DNA from: an uncultured SAR86 cluster bacterium
GTDB lineage: Bacteria > Pseudomonadota > Gammaproteobacteria > Magnimaribacterales > D2472
Assembly: GCA_902557965.1 (NCBI GenBank)
Contig: CACECK010000003.1
Location: 62,001 to 126,000, forward strand
Length of the DNA: 64,000 bases
Direction: 5' to 3'
Program-made: the position numbers and the translations under genes
The notes under the pieces: generated by a model
What the model was told of the DNA's origin: nothing
What the model saw: the letters and a program-made list of their open reading frames with translations, nothing else
The model's database searches: none
In this document: piece after piece, positions 16,516 through 29,503 of the stretch
How the letters are laid out: each line of letters starts with the position of its first letter
How positions within the stretch are numbered: the first letter of the stretch is position 1

Positions 16516-17232
16516 ATGTCAAATAAATATATTATTTTAGATACTGAAACTACCGGTCTTGAGGTCAAGCAGGGCCATAGAGTTATTGAGATTGGCGCTG
16601 TGCTTTTAAATGATAGAAAAAAATCTGAAGAGCATTTTCATGCATACATCAATCCATCAAGATTAATCGATGAAGAGGCTTCAAAGGTTCATGGAATTAC
16701 AAACGCAGATCTTGAGGACAAACCATCATTTGATGAAATCGCTGAGGAGTTTCTTGAATTTATAGAAGGATCAACTTTAGTCATTCATAACGCTCCATTT
16801 GATGTTGGTTTTTTAAACCATGAGTTAAAACTTGCATCAACTTCGTATCCTATGTTGGAAGATATTTGTGAAATTGAAGACTCACTGTTGATAGCTAGAG
16901 ATCAATATCCTGGACAGCGAAATTCGTTAGATGCTTTGGCTATTAGATTTGATGTATCTGGATACGACAGAACTTTTCACGGCGCTCTTCTTGATGCAAA
17001 TATTTTAGCTGATGTATACATGGGGCTAACAGGTGGTCAAAGTAAATTTGAATTCTCATCTAACACGGTCACTAATGGTTCAAATGGTAAAGAAAAAGAC
17101 CAGATTAGTGAAAAAGAATTTTCTAATCTCGTAACGATAAAATCATCAAATAATGATTTAAAAGCTCATGAAGAAAGACTGATTGATATTGAAAAATCAA
17201 ACAATGTCGAAACTATTTGGAGAAAATTTTAA
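16516..17232 (+). CDS. dnaQ: DNA polymerase III epsilon subunit (3'-5' proofreading exonuclease)
   Basis: IILDTETTGLEVKQGHRVIEIGAV, VIHNAPFDVGFLNHEL; start trimmed from ORF-track 16456 to ATG 16516, just after rnhA. Confidence 0.95.
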   Translation: MSNKYIILDTETTGLEVKQGHRVIEIGAVLLNDRKKSEEHFHAYINPSRLIDEEASKVHGITNADLEDKPSFDEIAEEFLEFIEGSTLVIHNAPFDVGFLNHELKLASTSYPMLEDICEIEDSLLIARDQYPGQRNSLDALAIRFDVSGYDRTFHGALLDANILADVYMGLTGGQSKFEFSSNTVTNGSNGKEKDQISEKEFSNLVTIKSSNNDLKAHEERLIDIEKSNNVETIWRKF

Positions 17233-18626
17233 TGACTAAAGTAATTACTAGATTTGCTCCAAGTCCTACTGGAACTCTTCATATTGGAGGGGTTCGAACT
17301 GCATTATTTAATTATGTATATGCAAAACAAAACGATGGTTTATTTCTAGTAAGGATTGAAGATACTGACAAAGATAGATCAACAAAAGAATTTGAGAAAA
17401 ATATTTTAGATAGCTTATCTTCAATTGGTTTATCTCCAGATAAAGAACCCATAAATCAATCTGAAAGAAACGATATATACGTTGCAGCTGCTGAAAAAAT
17501 TATTGCCTCTGGTAAAGGTTATTGGTGTGATTGTTCTAAGGAAACACTAGATGAAATGCGAAAAGATCAAGAAGCAGCTGGAAAGAAACCAATGTACGAT
17601 GGCAGAAGTAGAAATCTAGGTTTGGAAAGATCTGAAAATACTGTGTTAAGGCTTGCAACACCTGAAGATGGTGAAATTGTAGTAAAGGACCTTATTCGTG
17701 GTGAGGTCATGTTTCAGAATTCTGAGTTAGATGACCTTATTCTGCTTAGAAGTGATGGAACGCCTACGTATCATTTATGTAATGTGGTAGATGATTATGA
17801 ACAAAATGTATCAACTGTAATTAGAGGAGAAGACCATCTCAGCAATACTCCAAGACAAATCCATATACAAAATGCACTTGGCTATCCATCGCTTGAGTAT
17901 GCACACTTACCTTTGGTTCTTGGTCCAGACAAAAAAAGACTTTCAAAAAGACATGCTGCAACAAGTCTTGAGGAATATAAAGCTGAAGGATATTTAGATT
18001 CAGCAATACTAAATACATTAGGAAGATTGGGCTGGTCAAAAGGTGATCAAGAAGTTTTTTATATGAAAGATTTAATTAAAAATTTTAATATTCATGAAGT
18101 TCAAAAAGCTGGGGCAATTTTTGATATAACAAAATTAGATTGGTTAAATTCTCAACATCTATCAAATTTAAACTTAGAAGATTTTAAAAACCACTTGATA
18201 CCATTTCTTGAAGAAATATCTATTGATATAAATGATCATTTCAATACAGATGCTTTAATTAATGCAATGAAAAGCTCATCAAATACATTACAAGGAATTG
18301 CTACAGAACTAAGACCATATTTTTTAGATGTTGAAAATTATGACCAAAAGGCTATTAGCAAATTTATTGATGATAAAGGAATGCAAATTCTCAATGACTT
18401 GTTAGATATTCTAAGTAAATTGACTCAATGGGACGAAAATAATCTTGATCACGCACTTAAATCATATCAAACAGAAAATAATTACTCCGTACCTCAAGTA
18501 AATCAACCAATAAGAATTGCTCTAACTGGTTCAACCAAATCTCCCTCGCTTGGTTTGACTCTCTATTTGGTAGGACAAAAAAATTCATTAGATAGACTAA
18601 CAAAATTAATAAATTCTTTATCTTAA
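17232..18626 (+). CDS. gltX: Glutamyl-tRNA synthetase
   Basis: MTKVITRFAPSPTGTLHIGGVRTALFNY, KRLSKRH signature; start trimmed to ATG 17232. Confidence 0.96.
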   Translation: MTKVITRFAPSPTGTLHIGGVRTALFNYVYAKQNDGLFLVRIEDTDKDRSTKEFEKNILDSLSSIGLSPDKEPINQSERNDIYVAAAEKIIASGKGYWCDCSKETLDEMRKDQEAAGKKPMYDGRSRNLGLERSENTVLRLATPEDGEIVVKDLIRGEVMFQNSELDDLILLRSDGTPTYHLCNVVDDYEQNVSTVIRGEDHLSNTPRQIHIQNALGYPSLEYAHLPLVLGPDKKRLSKRHAATSLEEYKAEGYLDSAILNTLGRLGWSKGDQEVFYMKDLIKNFNIHEVQKAGAIFDITKLDWLNSQHLSNLNLEDFKNHLIPFLEEISIDINDHFNTDALINAMKSSSNTLQGIATELRPYFLDVENYDQKAISKFIDDKGMQILNDLLDILSKLTQWDENNLDHALKSYQTENNYSVPQVNQPIRIALTGSTKSPSLGLTLYLVGQKNSLDRLTKLINSLS

Positions 18627-18663: not shown

Positions 18664-18694
18664 TTGGACATATTTGCTTTTCTGAGCATATAAT
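18664..18694 (+). promoter_or_regulatory. Candidate sigma70 promoter for the first TonB-dependent receptor
   Basis: TTGGAC(A) followed by a perfect TATAAT at 18689-18694, spacer 18-19 nt; ATG 33 nt downstream with an AAGGGGA ribosome-binding site. Confidence 0.6.
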
Positions 18695-18726: not shown

Positions 18727-21700
18727 ATGACTAAATTTAAATTTTTAGCTTACTCACTATTAGTTCTTCCTTTTGTGATTTTTGCACAAGAAGAAGAAAC
18801 TGATTCTTCCAATTCTGAAGTTGAAGAGGTTGTAGTAGTTGGCTCACAAATTAAAGGTGCCTCAATTACAGATGCACTTCCTGTAACGGTTCTAACTGCT
18901 GATGATATTGAAGCTTTAGGCGTTGGTGACGGTGATGAATTAATTGAACAAGTAGTTGAGCAGGGCTTGAACTTCTTCAATGAACAAGAACAAGCTTCTG
19001 GTGGCGTTAACGCCAGTAGGGGTGACTCAGGTGCTTATAACCTCAGAAATATGGGTGTTGGTAACACATTGACTTTGTTAAATGGCAGAAGAATGGTTAA
19101 TAACGCTGGATATCAAACTGAGTTTATTGGTGGAGACTTTGTACCTACAGTTACTGTTAATACCAATTTAATACCAACAAATGGTCTAGATAGATTAGAA
19201 ATTTTAAGAGATGGTGCTTCAGCTATTTATGGTGCTGATGCTGTTGCCGGTGTTGTTAATAACGTTTTAAAAACTGATTATGAGGGTTCTAGTCTTTCAG
19301 TCAGAGTAACAGGTTATGAGCATTTTGATGCTACAAATACTGACGTTAGTTACAAATTTGGTACTACTCTCAATGATGGAGCCACAAATATTTCATTATT
19401 TGCAAGATATAGAGATAGAGGTGCAATTAGCGCAAGTGAAGACGAGCGGTGGTATAGTCAAGATTATCGTAGATATCTTCCAGAGGGATCTCCTTTTAAT
19501 GTATCTGCAATGAATAACACTAGCACTTACGGTTGGTTTCAGCTTGATTTAAGTGGTAGAGGTGTTGGTGAAGCATGGCATGCTTCTAATGATGGAGAGA
19601 CAGAATTAGCTGATGCAACTGATCCAAGAGGCGGTGCAGCTTTATGTGCTCTTCCTGGTGCAGTTCTTACAGGTTTTGGAACATGTATGTTTGATACTAA
19701 TGCCGGTGACAATAGGTCTAACCAGAGAGGTATGGGTGATTATCGAGGCGAAATGAAAAGACAGCAGTTCTTTGTTTTCCTTAACCATGAATTTGATAAC
19801 GGCATCGAATTGTTTAATGAAATTGGAGTTTACAAATCAGATTCAAATAGAGATATTTCAGCTGGTAGTTGGAGATCTGGAATGTTTTCGATTCCTTCTA
19901 CTTACTATTGGTTTTCACAACTTCCTGAATCAATAGGTTTCCCTACTAATAGATCTGTTGGTATTGACGGTTGGAGACCTTTTAACTTAAACAGACAAAT
20001 TAGTGTTGATAAAAAAAGCACAAGATTTGTTCTTGGTCTAAGAGGAACAACCAAGAATGGTTGGGATTGGGAAACTGCTATTGTTAATGCTGGTGCAAGT
20101 AGTGTAGACGCTGCTGGTAACAGAATTACTTATGAGGCTATGTATGAACAATTTTACGGGTCTGTTTCTACTACATCAGCAGCTTTTAATATCTTTGATA
20201 CTAATTGGGACACAAACAATGGTGACAACGTTCTAACAACAATTTATAGAAAAGATAAATCAACTCTTGATATGTTTGACTTTAAAGTTAGCAATAATGA
20301 GTTAATTGATTTACCCGCTGGTCCAGTTGGTATTTTGATTGGTATGGAAAGAAGAAGAGAGTCATATACAGATGACAGAGATCCATATCTAGATGGAACA
20401 ATTACAAACCAAGATTGTTGTGGTGTTACAAGCCCAACAAGATCTCATCCCTTTACTTCAGGTGTTTTAGGATCTAGTCCAACAGTTGATGTTACAGGCG
20501 ATAAAAAAGTTGATTCAGTCTTTGTTGAGATGGTTATTCCAGTAACTGAGCAATTAGATGCTCAAATTGCTGTTAGGAAAGAGGATTTCTCAGATACAGA
20601 ATCAACTTCTGTTGGAAGAGTTGCATTAGGTTATGTTGTTAATGATTATTTAAAGATGAGAGCGTCTGTCTCAACAGCATTTAGATCACCTAACATTCTT
20701 CAAATCAATCAGCCTTATGTTACAAGAACAGGAACAAGAACTGATGCTGTTCAAGAGTATAGAATATATAAAAATAATGGTGATAGCAGGCCTTCATCAG
20801 GTTCTGGATTTGCTAATGATTATACTATTTCAAATACTCTTCACTATAGACTAGGTAATGATCAATTATTACCAGAAGAGTCAGATAATGCTACTTTTGG
20901 TGTTGTTATTACTCCTAACGATTCTTTGACAATAACTGTTGATAGATGGAGTATAGAAAAAGATAACACAATTGGTTTGTTTGGAAGAAACAACTCTAGT
21001 GTTTATGATCTTCTCTTAAGAATTCAACAAGGAATTGGTGGGGCAACTACAGTCTCTGATATGTTAGCTTTTTGTGAAGGTAAAAACGTACTTAACAGTC
21101 AATTTGGTAAATACGCACTTGATGGATCATATGTTTTAAGGGATTCAAATCCTTCATCTTCATATGACGATGATTTCTTTAATGCTGGAATATGCCCTGC
21201 TGGTCAACAAGACACAGTTTATGAGCCATATCAAAACTTAGCATTAAGAACTGTCGAGGGAACAGATATTGCAATATATTATGATTTTGAAACTTCAATT
21301 GGTGATTTTAATATAACTTTACAATCTTCAATTACTGACAAGTTTGAACAAGAGCCAAGTTCTCAGTTTAGTGCAATTTCAGCTGCAGTTGCAGATGGAA
21401 CTTTACCTGCATATACAGTCTTAGAAGGTTATGGCGATCTTAAAAATAATGAAAATATTGGAACAGATCAAAAAGATACCCTGAAAGTTAACTACAGACG
21501 TGGTGACTGGGGTGCATCTCTTACAGCATTAAGAGTAGGAGAGCTTCTTGATAACGGAGTTAAAGGTGACAATGGTGAGATATATTTAATCCCATCAATG
21601 ACCACAGCTAACCTAAGTGTTTATAAGAAGTTTACTCTTAAAGGAAACGATGCAAGATTAAGGCTTATGGTTAGAAATATTGCAGATGAGAGAGCTCCAT

Positions 21701-21786
21701 TGGCTGATGGATGGTTTGGCTTCTATTCTGATATTCATAGAGACGATGGAAGACATTACTATCTTGATCTAAGAATGGATTTCTAA
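18727..21786 (+). CDS. TonB-dependent receptor (plug plus beta-barrel), TBDR-1
   Basis: Signal peptide, EVEEVVVVGSQI TonB-box-like segment, plug motifs (LNGRRMVNNAG, LDRLEILRDGASAIYGADAVAGVVN), FRSPNI, C-terminal aromatic DF. Confidence 0.94.
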   Translation: MTKFKFLAYSLLVLPFVIFAQEEETDSSNSEVEEVVVVGSQIKGASITDALPVTVLTADDIEALGVGDGDELIEQVVEQGLNFFNEQEQASGGVNASRGDSGAYNLRNMGVGNTLTLLNGRRMVNNAGYQTEFIGGDFVPTVTVNTNLIPTNGLDRLEILRDGASAIYGADAVAGVVNNVLKTDYEGSSLSVRVTGYEHFDATNTDVSYKFGTTLNDGATNISLFARYRDRGAISASEDERWYSQDYRRYLPEGSPFNVSAMNNTSTYGWFQLDLSGRGVGEAWHASNDGETELADATDPRGGAALCALPGAVLTGFGTCMFDTNAGDNRSNQRGMGDYRGEMKRQQFFVFLNHEFDNGIELFNEIGVYKSDSNRDISAGSWRSGMFSIPSTYYWFSQLPESIGFPTNRSVGIDGWRPFNLNRQISVDKKSTRFVLGLRGTTKNGWDWETAIVNAGASSVDAAGNRITYEAMYEQFYGSVSTTSAAFNIFDTNWDTNNGDNVLTTIYRKDKSTLDMFDFKVSNNELIDLPAGPVGILIGMERRRESYTDDRDPYLDGTITNQDCCGVTSPTRSHPFTSGVLGSSPTVDVTGDKKVDSVFVEMVIPVTEQLDAQIAVRKEDFSDTESTSVGRVALGYVVNDYLKMRASVSTAFRSPNILQINQPYVTRTGTRTDAVQEYRIYKNNGDSRPSSGSGFANDYTISNTLHYRLGNDQLLPEESDNATFGVVITPNDSLTITVDRWSIEKDNTIGLFGRNNSSVYDLLLRIQQGIGGATTVSDMLAFCEGKNVLNSQFGKYALDGSYVLRDSNPSSSYDDDFFNAGICPAGQQDTVYEPYQNLALRTVEGTDIAIYYDFETSIGDFNITLQSSITDKFEQEPSSQFSAISAAVADGTLPAYTVLEGYGDLKNNENIGTDQKDTLKVNYRRGDWGASLTALRVGELLDNGVKGDNGEIYLIPSMTTANLSVYKKFTLKGNDARLRLMVRNIADERAPLADGWFGFYSDIHRDDGRHYYLDLRMDF

Positions 21787-21800
21787 AACATTTAATTCTT

Positions 21801-21830
21801 AAAAGGGAGTTGTATAACTCCCTTTTTTTT
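21801..21830 (+). terminator. Rho-independent terminator downstream of TBDR-1
   Basis: AAAAGGGAGTT-GTAT-AACTCCCTTTTTTTT. Confidence 0.93.
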
Positions 21831-21846
21831 AATCTATAATTAATTC

Positions 21847-23283
21847 ATGGCAGCTTATAAGAAAAAAGGATTTTCTATAGGAATATTTATATTTCTTGTT
21901 ATGCAATTTTCTTCTGCACCAGCCGGGCTAAGCGATGTGGGTTGGGATGTTGCTGCTGTAGCTGTATTAATGGCAATCTGGTGGGCTACTGAAACAGTCC
22001 CAGTTGCCATAACGGCATTGTTACCTTTAGCATTATTTCCTTTATTAGGAGTAACTTCTTTTGATAATGCAGCGCTACCTTATGCTAATAAAAATATATA
22101 TCTATTCTTAGGTGGATTTATGCTGGCATTAGGAATTGAAAGCTCTGGTTTGCACAAAAGAATTGCGTTAAAAATGATAATTTCAGTAGGTTCCAGTGGA
22201 AGAAAGCTTGTAGGAGGTTTTATGCTTGTAGCAGCCCTAATAAGTATGTGGGTAATGAATACTTCTACTACCTTAATGTTGCTGCCAATTGGATTGGCTG
22301 TTTGTGGTGTAATGTCAGAAACAATTCCAGGATTATCGGATAAAGATAAATCAAATTTTAATACTGCATTACTTCTTGGTATTGCTTATGCTGCAACAAT
22401 TGGTGGAATGTCTACTTTAATTGGAACGGCTCCAAATATTGTTTTTAGTGCTTTTATGCAGGATACATACGGAGTTGAAATATCAATGTTTGATTGGATG
22501 AAGTTAGGTGTCCCACTTGCAAGTATTATGTTGTTTGGTGCATGGATTTTATTAACCAAATATGTATTTCCAATAAACTTTACTGCTTCAGCCGAAGCAA
22601 GAGATGAACTCAATACTATGCTCACAAAAATGGGAACTTTCTCAAAAGATGAAAAAAGAATTTCAGTAATTTTTGGGATTGCAGTTTTTGCTTGGGTTTT
22701 TAGAACATTACTTAATAACATTGATTTCTTATCTGGGCTTACTGATGCAGGAATAGCAATTATTGCTGCAATATTAATTTTTATGACTCCGTCTGCATCT
22801 AAAAAAGGTGATTTGCTTCAATGGGAAAGGTCAAAAGATTTACCCTGGGGCCTTTTAATATTATTTGGAGGGGGTTTATCGCTAGCAGCTCAGATAAGCT
22901 CAAGCGGACTTGGTATATGGATTGGTAATAGCTTATTAATATTAAGTTCAGTTCCACCAATTTTATTAATCTTGGCTGTAGCAACTTTAATTATTTTCCT
23001 TACTGAAATAACTAGCAATGTCACAACAACAACTACTTTTTTACCAGTCTTTGGAGCTTTAGCTATAGCCATAGGAGTTCTGCCAGTTTCTTTAACCGTA
23101 CCAGTTTGCCTTGCTGCAAGTTGTGCTTTTATGCTTCCAGTTGCAACTCCGCCAAATGCAATTGTTTATGGGTCTAATAAGTTTACTATCGCAACAATGA
23201 TGAGGGCTGGCTTTGCGCTTAACATTATTGGTATTTTTGTTGTAACTATATTTGCATATTATTTTGCACCTCTTATTTTTTAA
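21847..23283 (+). CDS. SLC13/DASS family anion:sodium symporter
   Basis: Multi-TM protein with WWATETVPVAITALLPLALFPLLGV, NTSTTLMLLPIGLAV, SNVTTTTTFLPVFGALA. Confidence 0.88.
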   Translation: MAAYKKKGFSIGIFIFLVMQFSSAPAGLSDVGWDVAAVAVLMAIWWATETVPVAITALLPLALFPLLGVTSFDNAALPYANKNIYLFLGGFMLALGIESSGLHKRIALKMIISVGSSGRKLVGGFMLVAALISMWVMNTSTTLMLLPIGLAVCGVMSETIPGLSDKDKSNFNTALLLGIAYAATIGGMSTLIGTAPNIVFSAFMQDTYGVEISMFDWMKLGVPLASIMLFGAWILLTKYVFPINFTASAEARDELNTMLTKMGTFSKDEKRISVIFGIAVFAWVFRTLLNNIDFLSGLTDAGIAIIAAILIFMTPSASKKGDLLQWERSKDLPWGLLILFGGGLSLAAQISSSGLGIWIGNSLLILSSVPPILLILAVATLIIFLTEITSNVTTTTTFLPVFGALAIAIGVLPVSLTVPVCLAASCAFMLPVATPPNAIVYGSNKFTIATMMRAGFALNIIGIFVVTIFAYYFAPLIF

Positions 23284-23287
23284 AGTT

Positions 23288-25000
23288 TTGAAAAAATTTA
23301 TAACAACTCTTCTATTTATTTCATACTTAAATGGAACAGATTACATTGATTACTTGCATCCTTTTCATCCTACAACCTCATCAAATGGGATGGTAGTAAG
23401 CCAGAATGCTCTATCTTCAGATATTGGAGTACAAATTTTAGATATGGGTGGTAATGCGGTTGATGCTGCAGTTGCAGTTGGATTTTCGTTAGCGACTACA
23501 TTACCAAGAGCTGGAAATCTTGGAGGCGGTGGGTTTATGTTAATTTATTTAAAAGATAAAAATGAAATCTTTTATATAGATTACAGAAGTAAATCACCAA
23601 GAAACTCTTCGATAGAAAAACTTCTTGGAACAAAAAGAATACCAGATAGAAGTTCAAAACGATGGGAAAGGGTGGATTACACTTATTTAGCCTCAGGTGT
23701 TCCTGGAACTGTTTATGGTTTATTAGAGGCTCATAAAAATTTTGGAGTATTAACTCTTGAACAAATCATGAAACCAGTTATTGAACAGGCTGAAAAAGGT
23801 ATTGTTGTTTCAAGTGATTTGAATTATGTCATTGAGGTTACTCCTCAATTAAGAAGTGATAGTGAATCATTTTCAATATTTTTTGATAACGGTGAACCTT
23901 TGAAAGAATTCTCTATTATGAAAAGGCCCGATTTAGCAAATACATTTAAAGAAATATCTAACAATGGTACTAAAGGTTTTTATGAGGGTATCATTGCTGA
24001 CAAAATTATAGAGGCAATGGAAAAAAATAATGGGTTAATAACCCATGATGACCTCAAGAATTACAAATCATTTTTTAGAATGCCTATTGCAATAAACTAT
24101 AAAGGTCATAAAGTTTATACTGCCGGACCTCCATCTGGAGGAGGAATTACTTTGCTTACAGCTTTAGGTATATTAAATAATATTGATATTAAAAAATATA
24201 AAAGTGATTCCACAAAGGCATATCATTATCTCGCAGAGTCCCTAAGGAGGGGTCATAACAATAGATCTCATTTTGTTGGAGATCCTGAGTATTTCAATGT
24301 TCCAGTTTCTGAATTACTTTCTTTAGAAAGAATCAAGGAGCTTATTAATTCAATTGATTCAAACAAAGCAAGCAAAATTCAGGAAGTGATTCCATTTAAA
24401 CCAAGAAAAGAGAGCAAAGATACCACTCATTATTCTATTATCGATAAATATGGAAATGCAGTTTCAAATACTTACACATTAGGCCTTTCATTTGGTTCTG
24501 GAGTTACTATTCCCGGAACTGGTATTTTAATGAACAGCCAAATGAATAATTTTGCATATAGATATGGAAATAAAGGTGATATAAGCAGAGGAGCAAGTCC
24601 TGGAAACAGATTTGAGCCAGGCAAAAAACCAATGAGTACTATGGCTCCAACAATCATCTTTGATGAAAATAACGAATTATTCTTAATTACTGGATCACCT
24701 GGCGGTTCTGATATTCCTGCAGCAATTTTAAGAGTTATTACTGGTGTAATTGATTTTGATTTAGATATAGGAGAGGCAACAATGTTGCCAAGAATTCATA
24801 AGGATTGGCCTTATGTTGGACTGGAGCATGAGAGAGCAGTTAGTAGAGATATTGTTAGGCGCCTCAAAAGCATGGGACATAAAACTGAATATGAAAATAC
24901 TATTGGCAGTACACAAAGCATACATGTTATCAATGGAACAAACTATGGTTTTGCTGACCTAAGAAGGCCAAATGCTGGTGTTTCAGTTCAGACTAATTAA
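23288..25000 (+). CDS. ggt: Gamma-glutamyltranspeptidase (glutathione hydrolase)
   Basis: GMVVSQNALSSDIGVQILDMGGNAVDAAVAVGFSLA, catalytic KDTTHYSIIDKYGNAVSNTYTL, GSPGGSDIP; probable TTG start at 23288. Confidence 0.94.
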   Translation: MKKFITTLLFISYLNGTDYIDYLHPFHPTTSSNGMVVSQNALSSDIGVQILDMGGNAVDAAVAVGFSLATTLPRAGNLGGGGFMLIYLKDKNEIFYIDYRSKSPRNSSIEKLLGTKRIPDRSSKRWERVDYTYLASGVPGTVYGLLEAHKNFGVLTLEQIMKPVIEQAEKGIVVSSDLNYVIEVTPQLRSDSESFSIFFDNGEPLKEFSIMKRPDLANTFKEISNNGTKGFYEGIIADKIIEAMEKNNGLITHDDLKNYKSFFRMPIAINYKGHKVYTAGPPSGGGITLLTALGILNNIDIKKYKSDSTKAYHYLAESLRRGHNNRSHFVGDPEYFNVPVSELLSLERIKELINSIDSNKASKIQEVIPFKPRKESKDTTHYSIIDKYGNAVSNTYTLGLSFGSGVTIPGTGILMNSQMNNFAYRYGNKGDISRGASPGNRFEPGKKPMSTMAPTIIFDENNELFLITGSPGGSDIPAAILRVITGVIDFDLDIGEATMLPRIHKDWPYVGLEHERAVSRDIVRRLKSMGHKTEYENTIGSTQSIHVINGTNYGFADLRRPNAGVSVQTN

Positions 25001-26438
25001 TTTTTCTGTAATCAAGTGGAGGTAATCTATCTCCAAGTAAAGGCTTATAATCAAACTCTTCTCCAGTTCTATTAATTAATTCTTGTTTAGCCTCAATAAT
25101 CTTGTCAGGATTTTCAAAAATTTCTTTAATTGAATTTGCCATTGTTTGAGCTGCTAATTCAGCTCCTTTAAGACCAATTGAAGTCCCGCCTGTAGAAACC
25201 GCTTGCCATGAATGTGCAGCAGTACCGGGAACCCATGTTGCTGTTCTTAATCCAGCGGTAGGAACAACCCAGCTAACATCTCCAACATCTGTTGAACCAT
25301 ATGAATGGGTTGTTTTAAATGGGAGAACATTTTCTTGAGAACCAATTTCTGAACTTGGTTTTATTAGAGTTTGATATATTTCTTTAGCGTACTTATTTTC
25401 AGATTCAGTATATTTTATACCACCTAAGTTACTTAAATTGTTATGAACTATTTTCTGGATTGTGTCATTTGGAAGTAATGAGTAATTACCATGCATAACT
25501 TCATAGGTCATACTCGTCTCCGTACCAATTGCAGCGCCTTCTGCAATTTTTACAACTCTTTCAAATAATTCATCGACAACTTGCATTTCTGGATGACGAA
25601 TATAGTAATAAACTTCAGCGTCATCTGGGACAACATTTGGTGCCAGACCACCTTTGGTTATAACATAGTGAATTCTTGATTCTTGAGGTATATGCTCTCT
25701 CATCATATTAACCATATGGTTCATACCTTCAACTCCATCTAGTGCAGACCTTCCTAGTTCAGGAGCTCCAGCAGCATGGGCAGAAATACCTTTAAATTTA
25801 AATTTACCAGATTTATTCGAATTAGATGTTCTTGAATTAGCTGAATTTTCATCATCTGGATGCCAATGAAGAACAACATCAACATCCTCAAATAAACCAG
25901 CTCTGACCATATAAACTTTTCCAGATCCTCCTTCTTCAGCTGGAGTTCCATAAAACCTAATAGTTCCCTTAATTTTATTTTGTTCAATCCATTCTTTTAT
26001 TGTTACAGCAGCCCATGCTGAAGCTGCTCCAAATAAATGATGTCCACATGCATGTCCAGCTCCAGTATTATTATCTGCAACCTCTTTGAAGGGAGAATTA
26101 GTCTGAGCTAAACCAGGCAAAGCATCAAACTCTCCTAAAATACCAATGACAGGACCGCCGTTATTATATTCAGCAATAAAACTTGTAGGAATTCCTGCGA
26201 CTCCTTTTTGAATAGCGAACCCGTTTGCCTCAAGCTCATCTGAAAGTAATTTTGAACTCTGATTTTCTAAATACCCAAGTTCTGCAAGATCCCAAATCTC
26301 TAAAGCTATTTTTTGGAATGAAGTTTTATTTGCATTTACTATTTCATCTAACTCTGAAGCAAAAGAATTATTTGAAAAAGCAAAAATTACTAAACAACCA
26401 ACTGTAAGTTTGCAAAATTGATATATTTTCCTACCCAT
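24993..26438 (-). CDS. M20 family amidohydrolase, AbgB-like, with signal peptide
   Basis: GILGEFDALPG, NNTGAGHACGHHLFG, STDVGDVSWVVPTAGLRTATWVPGTAAHSWQAVSTGGTSIGLKG (AbgB-type). Confidence 0.88.
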   Translation of the reverse strand: MGRKIYQFCKLTVGCLVIFAFSNNSFASELDEIVNANKTSFQKIALEIWDLAELGYLENQSSKLLSDELEANGFAIQKGVAGIPTSFIAEYNNGGPVIGILGEFDALPGLAQTNSPFKEVADNNTGAGHACGHHLFGAASAWAAVTIKEWIEQNKIKGTIRFYGTPAEEGGSGKVYMVRAGLFEDVDVVLHWHPDDENSANSRTSNSNKSGKFKFKGISAHAAGAPELGRSALDGVEGMNHMVNMMREHIPQESRIHYVITKGGLAPNVVPDDAEVYYYIRHPEMQVVDELFERVVKIAEGAAIGTETSMTYEVMHGNYSLLPNDTIQKIVHNNLSNLGGIKYTESENKYAKEIYQTLIKPSSEIGSQENVLPFKTTHSYGSTDVGDVSWVVPTAGLRTATWVPGTAAHSWQAVSTGGTSIGLKGAELAAQTMANSIKEIFENPDKIIEAKQELINRTGEEFDYKPLLGDRLPPLDYRKIN

Positions 26439-27841
26439 TCATTATTCTCCATTGAGTGAATTACTTGTTCATTATAACTTGTGACGATATTTCTTTTTTG
26501 CATATCATTTTCAATATACATTACCGCTTTTTTAGTCAGATTATCATCTTTTATTACTGTATAACCAATAATCTTCCCGGTTCCATCTTTTTTTTCTGAT
26601 ATTTCTACAGGGTTATCATATTTTATTGCTTTTTCAGTAACGTCCATAAACTTGAAAGGAATATTTTTTTGAGATGACCATAAAGCAAATGACTGTTTTG
26701 TCATCATGCCAGAAACTCCTGTAATAATTCCAACATCAGATTGATTAGATCTGATCTTTCTTATAATTTGAACGGTGGAATTTAAAACATAACTATTTAA
26801 AGGACCGCCTGCAAATGACATTCCTCCAGTAACAGTTGCCTCTGAAATATTTTTTATTTTTAAAACCTCAGCAAACATCTGAACCGCAATTGGAAAACAA
26901 CTATATAAATCATAAATGCTTGGCGTAATACTATTTTCATTACAAACATCTAATATGAATTCAGCAGCTAATTTCATTCCAAATGGTTTTGTTAGATTTT
27001 CTCTTTGCAGGGTAGGGATCATATTATTATTCTCAGATGAGGCTAAAAGATAAACCCTTTTTTCATTATCAATTTCAAGCAAATCTGCAATTTTTTCTGA
27101 GCATAAAAGAATTGCTGCTGATTGATTAACATTCCAGCTTGCACAATGTTTTTTGTTATATGGAAAAGCTATTTGAGGATTCAAATCATTAGAATCAACT
27201 ATTTCATTTATTGAATAGCGTTTTTCATCCCAACCAAGATCGTTATGAAAGGCTATATTTGAAAAATTAGAATAAATCTTAGCAATATCATGATGGTGGC
27301 TTGAAAAATTATTCATTTTTTTAGCTCTAAATGCACTTTCAAGAATTGAGTAATAACCAACAGCCATAGATCCTAATGATTTTTCTTCTATATTTAGTGT
27401 TAATTGATTATCTGATTTTATGTAATGATCTGGATTTTCAGTAAGTTGAGTTTCATTAAAATCCTTATTCTCAATTTTGGCTCTTGTTTTCTTATATCTA
27501 GCTTCTCCACCAATAATTAGACTTCCATTTATTTGACCTGATATTATTTTTTGACATGCAGAATTGATGAGGCTCTGTTGAAGAATTCCTATCTTAGAAA
27601 CAAATGTTTTTACATCTGAAATATTATTTTGTTTAGCGATCCATTTCCCCGGATCTCTATATCTCCAATATCCCTTTGGTATTTTGATTTCATCAATGTA
27701 CTTTTTTATTTCATTGTTGCCAGAATCTTGAATTGCAAGCTTTGCAGCTTTATCCATCAATATTAACGCTTCATCAAGATTGTCAAATTTATCTTTCTGT
27801 TGGATATCTCCAATGCCAATAACGACTGGATTATTTTCCAT
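26390..27841 (-). CDS. Thiolase-like protein / acetyl-CoA acetyltransferase family with C-terminal extension
   Basis: Thiolase-like segments (CASWNVNQSAAILLCSEKIADLL, ATVTGGMSFAGGPLNSYVLNSTVQIIRKI) and C-terminal beta-rich domain. Confidence 0.75.
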   Translation of the reverse strand: MENNPVVIGIGDIQQKDKFDNLDEALILMDKAAKLAIQDSGNNEIKKYIDEIKIPKGYWRYRDPGKWIAKQNNISDVKTFVSKIGILQQSLINSACQKIISGQINGSLIIGGEARYKKTRAKIENKDFNETQLTENPDHYIKSDNQLTLNIEEKSLGSMAVGYYSILESAFRAKKMNNFSSHHHDIAKIYSNFSNIAFHNDLGWDEKRYSINEIVDSNDLNPQIAFPYNKKHCASWNVNQSAAILLCSEKIADLLEIDNEKRVYLLASSENNNMIPTLQRENLTKPFGMKLAAEFILDVCNENSITPSIYDLYSCFPIAVQMFAEVLKIKNISEATVTGGMSFAGGPLNSYVLNSTVQIIRKIRSNQSDVGIITGVSGMMTKQSFALWSSQKNIPFKFMDVTEKAIKYDNPVEISEKKDGTGKIIGYTVIKDDNLTKKAVMYIENDMQKRNIVTSYNEQVIHSMENNEWVGKYINFANLQLVV

Positions 27842-27847
27842 TAAATA

Positions 27848-28468
27848 TTACTGAGCTGAGCCCCAATAATTATAGGCAACGACTTTCGGAGTGCTAGGAA
27901 GGTACATTTGTTCTAATTTATTAATTTTTAATCCAGCAGATTGAATGATCTCAGGAATATTTCTATTTATATTACATCCACCAAACAATTTTCCCCAAAG
28001 TGGATTAATCCTATTCTGCCATTTCATAATATTTTTATCAGGAGCAATACCATGTTCACAGAATAGCAAGGTTCCATCGTCTTTTAATACTCTTTTCATT
28101 TCTTTAAGAGCAGAATCAAAATCTGGAATAGTGCAAAGGGTATAGGTTACTAATACAGTATCTATAGATTTTGATGGAAGTTGTATTTCTTCAGCCCCGT
28201 TGATTAAAAATTCAACGTCTAAATCTGTTTTTTTGGCAGTTACATCTGCTATTTCATTTAATTCTTCTGATGGATCAAGTCCTATTACCTTACTTACAGA
28301 TTTATTATCGTAATATGGAATATTTAAACCAGAACCAATTCCAACCTCTAGAACATTACCTTTTGCTAAGGGTACAATCTTATTTCTTTGGTAAGTTACT
28401 GGTTTTGTCGAGCAACAACAGTCAAGAAGTTTAGGAAGAACATGCTTTTCATAAATATTACCTATCAT
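27848..28468 (-). CDS. Class I SAM-dependent methyltransferase
   Basis: [52 protein letters not shown]. Confidence 0.88.
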
Positions 28469-29253
28469 TCATCTAACTCATGTAAAGGCATTGCAGAGAT
28501 ATTGAAGCCAGCATCTACGTAGGTAATTTCTCCTGTAATTCCACTAGCATAATCAGAACATAGGAAGGTTGCAGCATTTCCAACTTCTTCAGTTGTAACT
28601 GTTCTGCCTAAAGGCGCTCTATTTGAATGCTGAATCAACATCTTTCTAAAGTTTTTTACTCCTGATGCAGCCAGAGTTTTTATTGGTCCAGCAGATATTG
28701 CATTAACTCTAATATTATCTCTGCCCATCGATGCAGCTAAAAATCTTGTATTTGCCTCCAAGCTAGCTTTGGCTAAACCCATGACGTTGTAATTAGGCAT
28801 TGTTTGTAATGATCCTAGATACGTAAGGGTCAATAGAGCAGAATTATCATTTAAATAGGGTTTTGCAGCTTTTGCTAACGCAGTAAAGCTATATGAACTA
28901 ATATCATGAGCAATCTTGAAGCCTTCTCTATTTGTTACATCAACAAAGTTACCTTCAAGCTGATCTGCTGGAGCAAAACCTATTGAATGAACTAAGCCAT
29001 CAAATGTTTTCCACTTGCTGGTAAGTGATTTAAAGGCTTTTTCTATTGAATTATCATCTGAAACATCACACTCTATAAGTAGATCAGAACCGCATTCATC
29101 GGCAATTGGTTTAAGATTTTTTAATAATCTCTCATTTTGATAGGCAAAAGCCAGTTCAGCGCCTTGTTTATGCATAGATTTAGCAATTCCGGCAGCAATA
29201 GAGTATTTATTAGCTAGCCCAAATATAACTATTTTTTTATTTTTTAATAACAT
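28465..29253 (-). CDS. fabI: Enoyl-[acyl-carrier-protein] reductase (NADH)
   Basis: [58 protein letters not shown]; start trimmed to ATG 29253. Confidence 0.93.
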
Positions 29254-29503
29254 CTTAATTATTTCCCTATTTGTATTTATTGTAAAAGAAAAATATCTAA
29301 TAGAGTAGTTAAAAATCTTAGTATGTTCAGCAACTTCATCTAACAAATTTTCTTAATATAAATAAATCGTATAATTCTATATAAATAATTAAAAAAGTTG
29401 TTGCTTTATGCTAAAAACGCTGGAACAATACTGTTACTAGCGTGAATGTGCGCAAACTAGTTCGTGCATTCATTTAATAAAACTAAAACTACAGGGGAAA
29501 TGT

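Follow-up and report, generated by a model that had tools for sequence, protein, structure and literature searches.

A TonB-dependent receptor, a DASS carrier and a GGT-family hydrolase with an altered substrate pocket form a candidate uptake cassette in SAR86 bacteria

The gene cassette

A 64,000-nucleotide stretch of a SAR86 genome, hereafter the window (contig C3:62001-126000 of a 1.05 Mb genome that is 81.5% complete and whose close relatives are SAR86 records), encodes a TonB-dependent receptor (TBDR; this one is named TBDR1), a sodium-coupled anion symporter of the DASS/SLC13 family and a gamma-glutamyltransferase (GGT)-family hydrolase in one operon-like run on the plus strand. The substrate pocket of the GGT-family enzyme is altered at the side that recognizes the donor alpha-amino group, and enzymes altered in this way recur beside TonB-dependent receptors in other proteobacteria. 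We favour, with moderate confidence, the view that the three genes form a single nutrient-uptake cassette, a capture-cleave-import unit for gamma-glutamyl-like amides that lack a free alpha-amino group. A sequence-only reading of the window had described four contiguous genes, the fourth being an AbgB-like M20 hydrolase, and profile matches confirm the open reading frames, the families and the order of all four.

TBDR1 (18727-21786, + strand) matches both the plug domain PF07715 and the barrel domain PF00593 above their cut-offs, which identifies it as a TonB-dependent receptor, and it carries the plug signature VVVVGSQIKGA..T.ALPV. The DASS gene (21847-23283, +) matches TIGR00785 over its full length with 294 bits against a cut-off of 198.6, and its relatives in the PDB are NaCT, NaDC and VcINDY. 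The GGT open reading frame (23252-25000, +; the likelier start is TTG at 23288) matches PF01019 and, over its full length, TIGR00066 with 480 bits against a cut-off of 357.85, which places the product, predicted to be exported, among the N-terminal nucleophile (Ntn) hydrolases of family T03. The M20D amidohydrolase (M20; 24993-26438, - strand), also predicted to be exported, scores 254 bits with TIGR01891 against a cut-off of 153.75.

Altered substrate pocket of the GGT-family enzyme

The residue at position 433 of E. coli GGT (Asp445 of BsGGT) contacts the alpha-amino group of the donor, and Asn411 forms a hydrogen bond with the lid residue Tyr444 (PMC8062742). The window enzyme is 40% identical to E. 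coli GGT, and alignments place the catalytic Thr391 equivalent at 24422-24424, Gly in place of Asn411 at 24482-24484, Asn in place of Asp433 at 24548-24550 and Thr in place of Ser463 at 24638-24640 (all +). Position 411 is Gly and position 433 is Asn in all SAR86 cassette GGTs, so the pair Asn411 and Asp433 that marks a canonical GGT is missing from them. Position 463 is Thr except in L199 (Ser) and L115 (Asn), and Tyr444 is lost, its position being variable. The cassette GGTs retain the equivalents of Thr391 and of the oxyanion residues Gly483 and Gly484, and Arg114 and Ser462 are kept in the SAR86 orthologs with single exceptions. Arg114 and Ser462/463 of GGT bind the carboxylate of the donor. 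Because the carboxylate-binding residues are kept while the amino-side residues are lost, donors without a free alpha-amino group are predicted.

Asn at position 433 is found in class IV cephalosporin acylases, and the D433N substitution in E. coli GGT abolishes transpeptidation, leaves 82% of hydrolysis and confers acylase activity on glutaryl-7-aminocephalosporanic acid (PMC8062742). Hydrolysis of a large number of glutaryl and sulfobutanoyl conjugates has been reported for one GGT variant (PMC11421214). The class IV acylases are known from industrial substrates, whereas the receptor and the importer encoded with the SAR86 enzyme suggest a natural role in uptake. This genetic tie to a receptor and an acid importer, like the pocket itself, also sets the SAR86 enzyme apart from E. 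coli GGT.

A second GGT-family protein (L001/L122, G000 C6:22289-23794) has Ser114, Tyr411 and Met433 and adjoins an aminotransferase-like gene.

Conservation of the cassette in SAR86

In about 20 SAR86 genomes, retrieved by M20 similarity, the order gltX-TBDR1-DASS-GGT, followed by M20 and genes for a thiolase-like protein, a methyltransferase and FabI, is held on every contig of sufficient length. Other genera of this family have TBDR1-DASS-GGT as an inverted block with respect to gltX and M20; at some of these loci, TBDR1 and DASS are separated by an exported hydrolase-like gene that has no confident Pfam match, and a LysR gene adjoins TBDR1. Because contiguity is kept over these genomes and through inversions, it is not a matter of chance. 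The cassette adjoins gltX in family f4, where M20 lies near gcv genes or was not found, and it faces a tandem GGT pair in family f2. Recent in-place tandem duplication was considered as the source of the variant GGT in f2 and rejected, as in the tree the canonical member of the pair falls among the other canonical GGTs. In the single f3 genome examined, the one GGT seen was canonical.

TBDR1 and GGT are almost never lost from the block, DASS is nearly constant and M20 is optional. Because DASS is absent from the cassette locus in G034 and G035 and M20 from G007 and G018, the core consists of TBDR1 and GGT. The conservation of neighbourhood that the sequence-only reading had proposed as a check thus holds for TBDR1 with GGT and mostly for DASS. 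It holds in part for M20, which is common next to the cassette in family f1 and is missing from many cassette-bearing genomes, G044 and f2 genus g7 among them.

The receptor seems to have a different history from its surroundings. Pairwise identities over 21 loci correlate with those of gltX with Spearman coefficients of 0.87 for M20, 0.68 for GGT, 0.54 for DASS and 0.26 for TBDR1. The TBDR1 plug is conserved (median identity 62-68%) and the barrel far less so (36-50%). TBDR1 lineages cross the borders of families f1, f2 and f4 (orthologs L033-L057 and L183-L211), whereas the gltX and M20 flanks follow descent. Because of this crossing and the weak correlation with gltX, TBDR1 alleles seem to have been swapped at a fixed locus, driven either by a change of ligand or by phages.

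Two candidate control elements flank the receptor gene. A promoter-like candidate, TGGACA-18-TATAAT (18665-18694, +), matches the consensus in 11 of 12 positions, which is not by itself proof of function; it lies between gltX (17217-18626, +) and TBDR1. Between TBDR1 and DASS, an 11-bp hairpin, AAAAGGGAGTT/AACTCCCTTTT (21801-21826, +), is likely an attenuator or terminator. It has a single exact copy in the window and is also present in L033, L037, L040 and L046, although the receptors differ there. Its position is consistent with attenuation behind a highly expressed receptor gene.

Receptor linkage of N433 GGTs beyond SAR86

We searched 151 genomes of the SAR86 order, 274 of the class and 399 of the phylum, and then 200 from the order of G710 and another 200 from that of G180. 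Classes were assigned from shared class or phylum labels and GTDB grouping. Loci were picked by GGT similarity and not by receptor presence, and loci with Asp433 served as controls. Further GGTs in which position 433 is not Asp were found in Alphaproteobacteria and Gammaproteobacteria. A receptor lies within 3.5 kb at 48 of the 52 loci with such a GGT and at 12 of the 42 Asp433 loci (Fisher p 7e-11, uncorrected for relatedness); outside SAR86 the counts are 21/24 and 6/29 (p 1e-6, likewise uncorrected). The 52 include the unrelated GGT2 type of L122, which has a receptor of another clade nearby. Ten of the 12 receptor-linked Asp433 GGTs share their locus with an altered GGT (SAR86 f2, L255, L316, L321 and L322), the remainder being L341 and L343.

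Most of the linked receptors, TBDR1 included, form a single clade (support 100) that spans SAR86, the gammaproteobacterial family f255, G306 and alphaproteobacterial loci, and GGTs of the G180 type pair with a receptor of another clade. The SAR86 N433 GGTs form one clade (support 98), separate from the canonical clade (support 95). No description of an operon joining a TonB-dependent receptor with GGT turned up in literature searches. The arrangement resembles SusCD-like and other receptor-based scavenging loci, in which the receptor comes first, a hydrolase and an inner-membrane importer follow and LysR is present in some; it differs from them in that the hydrolase is a GGT-family acylase. 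LysR genes adjoin the cassette in L184 and L191 by Pfam and in L321, L326 and L327 by similarity.

A third pocket class, with Tyr114 and Asn433, was seen in L329, L330 and L346-L349; five of these six lie beside a receptor of the same clade and three have M20.

Acid importers of the related loci

Two Ser-Asn-Thr motifs hold the substrate carboxylates in DASS proteins (PMC7553777). In the window protein, the second motif is Ser-Asn-Val, which is NaCT-like; the first, aligned to NaCT and VcINDY, is Met-Asn-Thr (22255-22263, +), which is not. Wherever the pattern was found in DASS proteins of SAR86, Met, or Phe in some f4 genomes, replaces the Ser of the first motif. Because of this replacement, which distinguishes the SAR86 orthologs from VcINDY and NaCT, their substrate may differ from plain succinate or citrate.

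The importers vary by lineage yet share the theme of acid import. Outside SAR86, GltS is found above the equivalog cut-off in L255 and SDF-family (GltP/DctA-like) proteins in L320 and L321. L214 encodes a protein that matches Pfam NMT1_3, which we take to be a TAXI-type binding protein. Amidohydrolases likewise recur, as M20 or, at L319, L326 and L328, as Amidohydro_3. D-amino-acid-dehydrogenase-like oxidoreductases lie near GGT in L255 and L320, with matches below the model cut-off.

Proposed function

TBDR1 would take the substrate across the outer membrane, and the N433 GGT-family hydrolase, presumably periplasmic, would use its N-terminal Thr to cut an amide in which the acyl group derives from a five-carbon dicarboxylic acid. 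The free carboxylate of the substrate would still be held by Arg114, Ser462 and Thr463, and no free alpha-amino group would be present. Candidate substrates are N-substituted glutamyl compounds (N-acyl-gamma-glutamyl compounds, p-aminobenzoate (PABA)/folate polyglutamates or muropeptide-like compounds) and des-amino, glutaryl-like ones. The freed acid, which could be glutamate, N-acyl-glutamate or a dicarboxylate, would be imported through DASS, and the AbgB-like M20, where present, would strip the N-acyl group from the product, probably as an accessory deacylase. Because the importer, amidohydrolase, oxidoreductase and Asp433 GGT partners fit release of glutamate or N-acyl-glutamate, they favour N-substituted glutamyl substrates over purely glutaryl ones, without deciding between them. 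The sequence of outer-membrane capture, periplasmic cleavage and inner-membrane uptake, which had been proposed for all four genes, is retained here for the conserved TBDR1, DASS and GGT, with M20 as an optional addition.

More tentatively, and at somewhat less than even confidence, the N433 enzymes may represent an old, previously unnoticed subfamily of GGT-like acylases that serves as the dedicated periplasmic enzyme of one receptor clade in Alpha- and Gammaproteobacteria. Such systems would constitute a widespread route of uptake for amides that lack a free alpha-amino group, of N-substituted glutamyl or glutaryl type, with interchangeable acid importers and deacylases.

Several observations weigh against these proposals. 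The state of position 433 changes only twice on the GGT tree, so the association with receptors is conserved linkage inside an old subfamily rather than many independent events, and the p-values, computed from related rows, overstate independence; a phylogenetically corrected test had two independent pairs only and no power. DASS and M20 are missing from the cassette loci and genomes named above. The AlphaFold models, built from shallow alignments, are too poor for inspection of the pocket (mean pLDDT, the predicted local distance difference test score, 53 for GGT and 43 for TBDR1). Because E. coli D433N keeps most of its hydrolytic activity, a pocket of this kind is still compatible with ordinary gamma-glutamyl substrates. 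The GltS and GltP neighbours also fit ordinary glutamyl breakdown, as do the Asp433 GGTs that occur as second GGTs at the same locus (L255, L316, L319, L321, L322 and SAR86 f2).

Alternative explanations

M20 may be a mere neighbour, an explanation that we hold to be a serious possibility although we lean the other way, and that is compatible with the proposed function of the other three genes. M20 is convergent to GGT and belongs to a minus-strand run with fabI (28465-29346), a methyltransferase gene (27848-28468) and a thiolase-like gene (26390-27841), the last lying directly upstream of it; these three neighbours are outside the cassette. Because of this orientation and because the thiolase-like gene extends into its 5' end, M20 lies outside the TBDR1-DASS-GGT transcription unit. 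The overlap measures 49 bases (26390-26438), and some overlap is retained in many SAR86 genomes. The divergence of M20 tracks gltX, unlike that of TBDR1, and in f4 M20 is found near gcv genes while the cassette remains by gltX. Against this explanation, M20 stands beside an altered GGT not only in SAR86 f1 but also in L214 (G306) and in the alphaproteobacterial L330, L346 and L347, and it is near 12 of the 52 loci in which position 433 is not Asp as opposed to 1 of the 42 Asp433 loci. M20 is a plausible optional partner of the cassette and not part of the AbgAB system of E. coli.

It is less likely that the cassette enzyme is an ordinary GGT that serves to scavenge cysteine and glutamate from glutathione and gamma-glutamyl peptides, the role proposed for SAR86 generally. 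The GGT profile scores are strong, the residual hydrolysis of E. coli D433N points the same way, and SAR86 ggt together with an aminopeptidase has been inferred to turn glutathione into cysteine (PMC11582366). However, N411G and D433N are conserved in the cassette while canonical GGTs with the RTN(E/Q)DD motif are separate paralogs in SAR86 relatives, the canonical copies in family f1 are unlinked to TBDR or DASS, and the cassette has no Cys-Gly peptidase. Because of N411G, D433N and S463T, activity on glutathione or other common gamma-glutamyl compounds, which the sequence-only reading had put forward, is not implied by the family name.

Scavenging of folate breakdown products appears improbable. 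The variant GGT would trim gamma-linked polyglutamate off PABA-Glu or folate, and M20 would cleave PABA-Glu in the manner of AbgAB. Over 473 aa, M20 shares 40% identity with E. coli AbgB, to which it is homologous, and it carries the metal-site motifs HACGH, PAEEGGSGK and AHSW; the loss of Asp433 and Asn411 is consistent with a donor whose alpha-amino group is acylated, and M20 recurs beside altered GGTs in the four non-SAR86 loci already named. However, AbgA and AbgB of E. coli assemble into a heterotetramer (PMC5082436), and no abgA lies beside M20 at the locus. A search of the genome, at its stated completeness, gave no match to the AbgT-family transporter that is encoded with AbgA and AbgB in E. 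coli. AbgT and DASS are assigned to the same larger group, the ion transporter superfamily. M20 also differs from E. coli AbgB in a signal-peptide-like N-terminal extension, and the SAR86 locus differs from the E. coli one by the addition of GGT and TBDR1; the missing abgA and the signal peptide had both been noted from the sequence, and both observations stand. Moreover, f2 genus g7 and G044 have the cassette without a close M20, and the M20 homologs examined outside SAR86 revealed no common context of this kind. The folate assignment made earlier reduces to resemblance to AbgB, while N-substituted gamma-glutamyl compounds, folate and PABA polyglutamates included, are still compatible with the pocket. 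An exported M20D protein that is 26% identical to AbgA (L123, G000 C1:3662-4984) is a possible distant partner of the AbgB-like M20.

Uptake of a siderophore or another carrier, in which TBDR1 brings in a metal complex that GGT opens, is very improbable: the top PDB matches of TBDR1 are siderophore receptors and it weakly matches FepA and CirA models, but these matches cover mainly the plug and fall far under the cut-off, DASS is not a metal-siderophore importer and the cassette has no ABC permease.

Significance

SAR86 bacteria are among the most abundant in the ocean, and the literature interprets their ggt genes as genes for conversion of glutathione to cysteine (PMC11582366). Judged from sequence and gene context, the receptor-linked hydrolase of SAR86 probably handles a compound class other than the annotated one; if so, the glutathione-to-cysteine inference fails for the cassette copy. 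The residues at positions 433 and 411, together with gene context, offer a simple rule by which genes annotated as gamma-glutamyltransferase beside TonB-dependent receptors can be re-annotated. If the proposed function is correct, the cassette would provide a natural context for GGTs of the class IV acylase type and a testable route of dissolved organic nitrogen use in SAR86.

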